64,000 nt of DNA. It comes from Methanolobus bombayensis. GTDB lineage: Archaea > Halobacteriota > Methanosarcinia > Methanosarcinales > Methanosarcinaceae. The position numbers and the translations under genes are program-made. The notes beneath the pieces are model-generated. The model was not told the origin of the DNA and made no database searches. It saw only the letters and a list, made by a program, of their open reading frames with translations. The DNA is taken from positions 1 through 64,000 of the forward strand of contig NZ_JAGGKD010000006.1 in the NCBI RefSeq assembly GCF_017873415.1. Direction: 5' to 3'. Shown here one piece after another: positions 19,830-21,313 of this stretch (position 1 is the first letter of the stretch; every line of letters starts with the position of its first letter).

Positions 19830-19986
19830 AAAAAACGCCATCTTTTGACTTACTTAGCAGTACCTGCTGCACAGTGTATTTAGACCTTGTAATCCACGAA
19901 CACCTATATATACAATAAAAGTCCAATTTTATTTAGTGGACTATAGGTAATTGATTCCTTTAATCCAGGATTCTGGGGTACGTCTT

Positions 19987-20595
19987 ATGGTCTTGAATGT
20001 TCATGATGATATGGAAACCGATGTCTCCATAATGGAGATTCAAAATGAGATGTCGGTCAGGGAAATAATGTCCAAGGATACTTTTGACATTGATGTCAAT
20101 GCCAGTGTTCTAGATGTTGCGAACAAAATGGCAGGAAGTGGAACTGGATGCATTATCGTAAAAGAGAATGATGACAGCATCGGCATCATTACTGAGCATG
20201 ATATTTTAATAAAGACCGTATCCAGGAACGTATTGCCCTCTGAGATGACAGCCGGTGAGATTATGTCATCCCCTATCATAGCAACAAAGCCTGTGACAAA
20301 TATAATCGAGGCTGCTGAAATGATGGTCAAGTCTGAAATCAGAAGACTTGCTGTGATGGAAGGAGATGCAATAGTGGGAATGATAACGGACAGGGACATA
20401 CTAGCCATAGCTCCGGGTCTGAACACTATTCTGGAAGGACTTATCGAACTGCATCATGAAAACAACATCCAGCATCAACCGGAACTTGAACGTGGCATTT
20501 GCCAGCGTTGCGGAACTCTGGTAGACAGCCTGACGGATGTAAACGGATTGATGTTGTGCGAAGACTGTAAAGAGGAAGAAGGTTACTATGACTAG
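19987..20595 (+). CDS. Two-CBS-domain protein with a C-terminal zinc ribbon
   Basis: A Bateman-type regulator of about 202 residues. Two CBS motifs (each with VxDVANKMxxxxxGCIIV-like and IGIITEHDIL / VGMITDRDILA ends) form one adenylate-binding module. A zinc ribbon follows at the C-terminus (CQRCGTLVDSLTDVNG, then LCEDC). CBS pairs bind AMP, ATP or SAM-type ligands and the ribbon may contact DNA, RNA or a partner, but the role is unknown. I prefer the ATG at 19987, after CTGGGGTACG, over the upstream TTG at 19951. It precedes the two larger CBS proteins. Confidence 0.85.
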   Translation: MVLNVHDDMETDVSIMEIQNEMSVREIMSKDTFDIDVNASVLDVANKMAGSGTGCIIVKENDDSIGIITEHDILIKTVSRNVLPSEMTAGEIMSSPIIATKPVTNIIEAAEMMVKSEIRRLAVMEGDAIVGMITDRDILAIAPGLNTILEGLIELHHENNIQHQPELERGICQRCGTLVDSLTDVNGLMLCEDCKEEEGYYD

Positions 20596-20853
20596 TTCTG
20601 ACTGGTCAACTGATAAAGGACACTTCAAGCTGGTGAAACAAATGTCTGTCCCGATATATACTAAAAAAATAAATGTATCGATCTTCAAAGCAACACCTGT
20701 GTTTCGGCCGGGAAAAATTATGATATTCTGGCATTCAGTGTTAGCTGGATTTACTGTTATTGCAGGCAGACACAGTATAGTACCTGAATACTAAAGCAAT
20801 ATCTAATTGCATATCAGGTAAGATAATTGTTAACCAAGAGGTTTGAATGTCTT
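20596..20853. other. Gene-free stretch after the CBS/zinc-ribbon gene
   Basis: No supported gene. A 68-codon plus-strand frame (20588-20794) overlaps the stop of the CBS gene but has no family resemblance and no ribosome site of its own. I see no clear hairpin terminator here. Confidence 0.4.
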
Positions 20854-20902
20854 TCACAAAACATCTGGACATTATATAATAAAAATTCCAGTTATTTTGT
20901 GA
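20854..20902 (+). promoter_or_regulatory. Promoter of the CBS-RNA ligase operon: TATA box inside an inverted repeat
   Basis: ATTATATAAT (20871-20880) is a good TATA box. It is flanked symmetrically by TCACAAAA (20854-20861) and TTTTGTGA (20895-20902), perfect 8-base inverted arms. This is an operator-like arrangement around the site of TBP binding and initiation (expected near 20900). If it is the operon promoter, the leader is about 410 bases long. Confidence 0.45.
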
Positions 20903-21104
20903 TGTTATGGAGCGCAGTGGTTTAGTTGAAAATCAGAAAACAGGTCAAAGAACTGGAAAAGATAAACATTCGACCCCGGACAAAAGACCAAAAAACACAA
21001 AACTCCATAGCCATAGCTATGCCTTTTGGAATTATAATCAGCAGACAGAAAGACGCTGCTGTATCAGTTCACGCTAATTGTTAATCAGGAGGTGAAGAAG
21101 AAAA

Positions 21105-21290
21105 CCCGGTATTAAGCGGGAATACCACAATAAGTGGTGGTGAAAAACAACGGGCATAATCATTTGGGAATTGTCCGAAAAGGCAGAGTTGAGATCAAAG
21201 AGCAGGCAAAAAGCCAGAGGAAAGAGGCAGAAGCTCTTTGCAGAACAATAATTTAAAAATATCCTGCAGGTCTGGACGTTTTTAAGTTCA
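21105..21290 (+). ncRNA. Candidate structured leader RNA upstream of the tandem CBS genes
   Basis: Several stems lie in order before the first CBS gene. CCCG (21105-21108) can pair with CGGG (21117-21120), while GGTATT (21108-21113) can pair with AATACC (21121-21126), and ACCAC (21124-21128) with GTGGT (21134-21138). These three share bases, so they cannot all form together. CGGGCA (21151-21156) pairs with TGTCCG (21172-21177). AAAGAGC (21197-21203) pairs with GCTCTTT (21233-21239) and encloses GGC(A)5GCC. CTGGAC pairs with GTTCAG at about 21272-21289, just before AAGGAGG. There is also an AGGAGGTGA at 21088-21096 with no start codon after it. The pattern looks like a switch or an independent RNA; I recognise no known class. 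Confidence 0.45.
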
Positions 21291-21313
21291 GGCTTCAAAA
21301 AAGGAGGAACAAC

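Follow-up and report, generated by a model that had tools for sequence, protein, structure and literature searches.

The leader of a CBS-RNA ligase-GTPase operon in Methanolobus bombayensis is a gene relic that may act as a structured, bistable RNA

The locus

The window, by which we mean the whole stretch of 64,000 nucleotides of M. bombayensis DNA analyzed here, contains a CBS-domain gene at 19951-20595 and, farther downstream, an operon of two CBS genes (cbs1 and cbs2), an RNA ligase gene and a GTPase gene (Table 1). Archaeal SelB-like proteins, which the GTPase resembles, have been described (PMC3037878). Directly before cbs1 lies the subject of this study, a leader of approximately 410 bases. 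The stretch that follows the upstream CBS gene, 20570-20720, shows stronger conservation than the leader (p-distance 0.016-0.14). It holds an open reading frame of about 50 codons (MSVPIY..KRNVS.FKAT...) that is present in nearly all Methanolobus. Since its three codon positions change about equally (102/143/144), this stretch may be conserved as an RNA or DNA element and not for an encoded protein.

Table 1. Coordinates of features in and around the cbs1 leader.
Feature	Start	End	Strand	Basis
Dyad TCACAAAA...TTTTGTGA with TATA-like TTATATAATA; putative old cbs0 promoter/operator	20854	20902	+	
cbs0 relic, old TTG start to C-terminal codons	20926	21270	+	Slot in relatives; homology via relatives' relics
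Orphan SD-like AGGAGGTGA, remnant of Gly-Gly-Gly codons	21087	21095	+	Alignments of relatives
CCCG/CGGG and ACCAC/GTGGT hairpins; overlapping GGTATT/AATACC in the window only	21105	21138	+	Alignment of relatives
CGGGCA/TGTCCG hairpin	21151	21177	+	Single-sequence folds; relatives have a hairpin with other arms in the same place
Covarying hairpin AAAGAGC/GCTCTTT	21197	21239	+	Pair counts versus shuffles
Alternative helix, TGCAG (21239-21243) with CTGCA (21264-21268); predicted SD-free state	21239	21268	+	Fold energies
ATATCCTGCA, holding anti-SD TCCT (21262-21265)	21259	21268	+	Invariant in 16 species
Predicted SD clamp, TCCT (21262-21265) with AGGA (21305-21308) and C21267 with G21303	21262	21308	+	Local folds
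cbs1 Shine-Dalgarno (SD) GGAGG	21303	21307	+	Invariant in alignment
cbs1, four CBS domains	21314	22159	+	Domain search
cbs2, four CBS domains	22196	22972	+	Domain search
RNA ligase, Pab1020 type	22989	24155	+	TIGR01209, 404 bits versus cut-off of 137
EF-Tu/SelB-like GTPase	24207	25244	+	Profile matches

A first-pass annotation made from the sequence had described a TATA box inside an 8-base inverted repeat, and both are present, with the TATA-like element at 20872-20881 between arms at 20854-20861 and 20895-20902. The arms change together to TCGCAAAA...TTTTGCGA in six close relatives, with one arm mismatch in L054. The dyad is partly retained in the A2 species, and the TATA element is weaker in relatives than in the window. 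The dyad pattern TCRCAAAA-N-TTTTGYGA has a single other match in the genome, at G000:C1:419899-419955.

The leader was also said to lack a convincing gene, which agrees with our results: between 20907 and 21313 the + strand has no open reading frame longer than 56 amino acids, and the frames tested have no Pfam matches. A short reading frame, MKMLLYQLT..., was considered as a leader peptide and set aside, as by inspection it carries no codon signature. An SD-like site far from any start codon does exist, one base to the left of where it had been placed (21088-21096). Its GGAGGTG, which we take to match the usual 3' end of archaeal 16S rRNA, is invariant across 16 species and may bind ribosomes without initiation. 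The leader also contains an AT-rich segment, TTTAAAAATAT, at 21252-21262.

The leader is a relic of a lost CBS-domain gene

In relatives outside the window's own clade, an intact gene of approximately 310-330 codons with four CBS domains, which we call cbs0, fills the slot that separates cbs1 from the upstream CBS gene. Intact copies are present in Methanolobus halotolerans, in three further Methanolobus genomes, in Methanococcoides and Methanohalophilus, and in other Methanosarcinales. In the window's clade, which comprises 16 Methanolobus species and is referred to here as clade A, the leader occupies the same position as this former occupant. There the reading frame of cbs0 has been destroyed by stops, frameshifts and deletions, leaving about 345 of roughly 930-1000 bases.

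The homology is recognizable and colinear in the clade-A relatives L060, L061, L062, L064 and L065. In L061 the leader retains a frame of 123 codons (...RRKDPELLSVAVT...RRLTVENAVNMQLEDIVTSVDVRSLSGGGNENP...) that matches cbs0 with a profile E-value of 8e-8 and a BLASTP E-value of 6e-9, and in this same comparison it matches neither of the paralogues cbs1 and cbs2. A frameshift-tolerant alignment to cbs0, scored against shuffled DNA with 12 shuffles per sequence, gives z-scores of 15.8, 13.6, 9.7, 5.6 and 5.4 for five clade-A relics, and of 26, 9.7, 6.4 and 5.0 for relics of other Methanolobus lineages. When the window's leader is compared directly to the cbs0 protein in this way, no similarity is detected (z -1.4), because this leader has decayed too far. 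Its DNA nevertheless aligns with the clade-A relics from the TTG at 20926, through the Gly-Gly-Gly codons that correspond to the orphan AGGAGGTGA, to the C-terminal codons at ATATCCTGCA. Thus, on the basis of DNA homology to recognizable clade-A relics, the window's leader is a cbs0 relic. It shares with intact cbs0 the slot, a colinear N-terminus, the GGG motif and C-terminal remnants, and differs from it in its disrupted frame. One caution that follows is that what looks like an orphan Shine-Dalgarno site in a leader can be left over from glycine codons.

A tree of cbs1, cbs2 and the ligase, some deep branches of which are weakly supported, implies at least three losses of cbs0 in the genus. 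Upstream of cbs0 in L069, L072 and L082, an inverted repeat, CTACAYATCTTC...GAAGRTATGTAG, with about 45 bases between its arms, sits where clade A has its TATA-dyad. In four loci of Methanococcoides and Methanohalophilus (L101 and L104-L106), an extra CBS-domain stretch lies after the upstream CBS gene and before cbs0, at about -1950 to -1300 relative to cbs1; Methanolobus shows no such stretch. CBS genes seem to have dropped out of the cluster repeatedly.

Conservation, excess folding and covariation

Leader DNA was found in 16 of the 27 genomes of the genus, every time directly before cbs1. Two covariance models built from the leader, R1 and R2, each find one strong copy per genome in these 16 clade-A genomes. 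The next match of R1 in the genus (E 0.06) is the homologous cbs1 start of G017, R2 gives weak scores (best E 1.4e-4) at the homologous cbs1 starts where cbs0 is intact, and the genus holds no further strong copies, the best off-locus E-values being about 0.16 (R1) and 3.5e-4 (R2). An independent RNA had been suggested as an alternative; a dispersed RNA of this kind is therefore unlikely. G040, whose cbs1 has 69% identity, like that of clade B, lacks the clade-A leader.

The relic is retained in all clade-A species, and its 3' part is nearly constant in length. Among the seven closest species, the leader has diverged by 0.18 and the four-fold sites in cbs1 and cbs2 by 0.28. The constrained blocks are 20840-20869, 20900-20929, 21050-21139 and 21260-21313, while 20930-20989 and the loop at 21200-21229 drift at close to the neutral rate.

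The window's leader folds more stably than expected (z -3.4), and none of 100 dinucleotide shuffles folds equally well. In clade A the 3' half, taken from 25 bases 5' of GGAGGTG to the start codon, has a negative folding z-score against dinucleotide shuffles in 16 of 16 species, ranging from -0.9 to -4.3 with a mean of -2.8. The corresponding values are -0.06 on average for the relics of clade B and other lineages, -0.6 and -1.2 for intact cbs0, -1.0 for a cbs1 segment and -1.3 for the stretch after the upstream CBS gene. Folding of the alignment gives z-scores of -5.8 and -7.5 against column shuffles. Given that the z-scores are negative in clade A and near zero in other relics, the excess structure is seen in clade A alone, and there only once the gene had died.

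At least six short stems had been described in the window, and all of them exist: CCCG/CGGG (21105-21120), GGTATT/AATACC (21108-21126), ACCAC/GTGGT (21124-21138), CGGGCA/TGTCCG, AAAGAGC/GCTCTTT and the hairpin just before AAGGAGG. The first three overlap and had been read as a switch. The outer two are retained in seven of the seven closest sequences, but the middle stem is specific to the window, with GATATC or GATACC facing AATACC in the six closest relatives, and the three-stem switch is therefore unsupported. For the CCAC/GTGG hairpin, covariation among the nine A2 species does not rise above that of shuffles.

Two hairpins, the one at 21197-21239 and the last one before cbs1, do covary in relatives. 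In the former, five of 12 pairs have changed on both sides, which is matched by two of 500 shuffles in a sequence-only alignment of nine species; in these species 88% of cells pair, compared to 27-61% in slid versions, and the value is 92% for 16 species in an alignment fitted to the structure. The last hairpin is 97.8% paired in a sequence-only alignment of nine sequences, where two of 500 shuffles match its covariation, and 96% paired in the structure-fitted alignment of 16 species, where none of 500 does. These shuffle counts overstate the significance since the species are related and kinship was left uncorrected.

Predicted alternative pairings at the cbs1 ribosome-binding site

In local folds of all 16 clade-A species, the UCCU of the invariant AUAUCCUGCA pairs with the AGGA of the cbs1 SD, forming a predicted clamp closed over the covarying hairpin 21268-21277/21286-21295. 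The five pairs of the clamp show no covariation of their own because they never vary; the compensatory changes lie in the upper stem. The same invariant bases can pair upstream instead, as UGCAG/CUGCA in the window and five close relatives, GGAUA/UAUCC in several others and CAGGA/UCCUG in L067. In 13 of 16 species the predicted energies of the clamped state and the SD-free state differ by no more than 2.3 kcal/mol (-17.1 and -16.8 kcal/mol, respectively, in the window). L058, L064 and L068 have no good upstream partner for the anti-SD, and several species fold best into a third state, in which a small UUCC/GGAA hairpin covers part of the SD. The orphan AGGA was also considered as a switch partner of TCCT and was ruled out, as L065 retains only GGA there.

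When the folded context is extended to 290 bases, of which 260 lie upstream, the predicted accessibility of the SD is no different from that of controls. In most species the clamp then makes up only a small part of the predicted ensemble (mean probability 0.07, against 0.28 for the window). Occlusion is therefore one of several predicted states and not a proven default. From these folds we infer a cis-acting bistable element able to occlude the cbs1 ribosome-binding site. The proposal of a switch-like leader is thus supported in part: the data favor a structured leader that is conserved, acts in cis and has alternative pairings near the cbs1 SD, but they do not support the three-stem version.

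In outgroups with intact cbs0, the cbs1 starts are mostly loosely folded (0 to -3.7, with two at -6.2). In clade B1, which lost cbs0 independently, the start codon of cbs1 is enclosed in a different hairpin (-6.8 to -8.8). A hairpin of the B1 type, AACATTT..ATGG/CCATGAATGTT, occurs in L070, L073, L079, L080, L081 and L146, with the SD in its loop.

Discussion

The reading that we prefer, with a probability of roughly 0.55, is that the leader is a dead cbs0 that now serves as a structured RNA with a bistable, SD-occluding end acting in cis on cbs1. It builds on what was observed: the slot, the homology via relatives, the excess folding, the covariation and the invariance of the anti-SD. According to this reading, cbs0 would have been the first gene of a cbs0-cbs1-cbs2-RNA ligase-GTPase operon, and its old promoter, the TATA-like element within the dyad, would now give rise to the leader transcript, which is probably a long, untranslated RNA. 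Once no longer translatable, this RNA would have gained conserved hairpins in the window's clade that keep it folded. Its invariant AUAUCCUGCA would pair either with the cbs1 SD, occluding it, or with a short upstream segment, leaving it freer, and the balance of the two would set ribosome access to cbs1 and perhaps also to the genes behind it. Selection appears to maintain the clade-A hairpins, including the one able to hide the cbs1 ribosome-binding site. A further step, that the rest of the operon came under a bistable translational switch exapted from its dead first cistron and that occlusion of the ribosome-binding site arose twice after independent losses of cbs0, as the SD clamp of clade A and the start-codon hairpin of clade B1, is one that we put forward only tentatively.

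A mere decaying pseudogene, with hairpins of little meaning and an operon promoter close to cbs1, would account for the near-neutral drift of 20930-20989, for the AT-rich TTTAAAAATAT and for the relics of the other clade that have no excess structure. We nevertheless regard it as unlikely, given that every one of the 16 species retains the relic and that its 3' part hardly varies in length, and given a divergence below that of four-fold sites, the covariation, and the excess folding in 16 of 16. It is also rather improbable that the structured leader only stabilizes or processes an untranslated mRNA, protecting it from decay or termination, and has no part in a translational switch. Hairpin positions that persist while their sequences drift, and a clamp that is a minor state in long context, speak for such a leader, and long 5' UTRs are reported to stabilize the mtaA and mtaC mRNAs of a cold-adaptive methanogen (PMC5378194); mere stability, however, would need neither an invariant ATATCCTGCA nor the same local clamp in every one of the 16 species.

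There is very little room for a leader peptide or attenuator, in which ribosomes on a short leader frame control the hairpins. By inspection, MKMLLYQLTLIVDKEVEKKTRYQREYHLKW* or a version of it can be read through the orphan SD in six of the seven closest species. In the window, however, the start codons of this frame are missing and an early stop interrupts it; third codon positions show no excess of changes (again by inspection); and no conserved frame of at least 25 codons reaches the SD clamp. Least probable of all are the ideas, raised in part by the first-pass annotation, of a riboswitch, of autoregulation by the CBS proteins or of cutting or joining of the leader by the operon's RNA ligase, for even though a bistable SD element invites a ligand and CBS proteins commonly sense adenosine nucleotides, an Rfam search reached no family at gathering thresholds and nothing credible at permissive ones, the element is confined to a single locus, relatives without the leader have the same proteins, the only tie to the ligase is the shared operon, and there is no evidence for any ligand, RNA-protein contact or joining.

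The end of the leader resembles known 5' UTR elements that occlude a ribosome-binding site, such as RNA thermometers and translational switches, in that an anti-SD lies a short way 5' of the SD, compensatory changes occur in the hairpin that closes the structure, and the anti-SD has an alternative pairing. It differs from them in being archaeal, in being made from the remains of a protein gene and in being unrelated to any Rfam family. The length predicted for the leader falls within the range mapped by RNA-seq in Methanolobus psychrophilus R15, where 5' UTRs of up to 497 nt are common and some have a proposed buried ribosome-binding site (PMC5378194). The main text of that start-site paper mentions no CBS gene (PMC5378194), and G040, which may be near R15, is without the clade-A leader. 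In the open-access literature we found nothing close to a prokaryotic leader made from a dead gene.

To our knowledge, few cis-regulatory RNAs are known in archaea. If the exapted switch is real, it would replace the control formerly given by translation of the lost cbs0. The origins of leader RNAs are rarely visible; here the stages stand side by side within one genus, as an intact gene, a relic that shows no excess structure (clade B and L082) and a relic with covarying hairpins (clade A). The genus thus offers a natural series in which the passage from dead gene to regulatory RNA can be tested.
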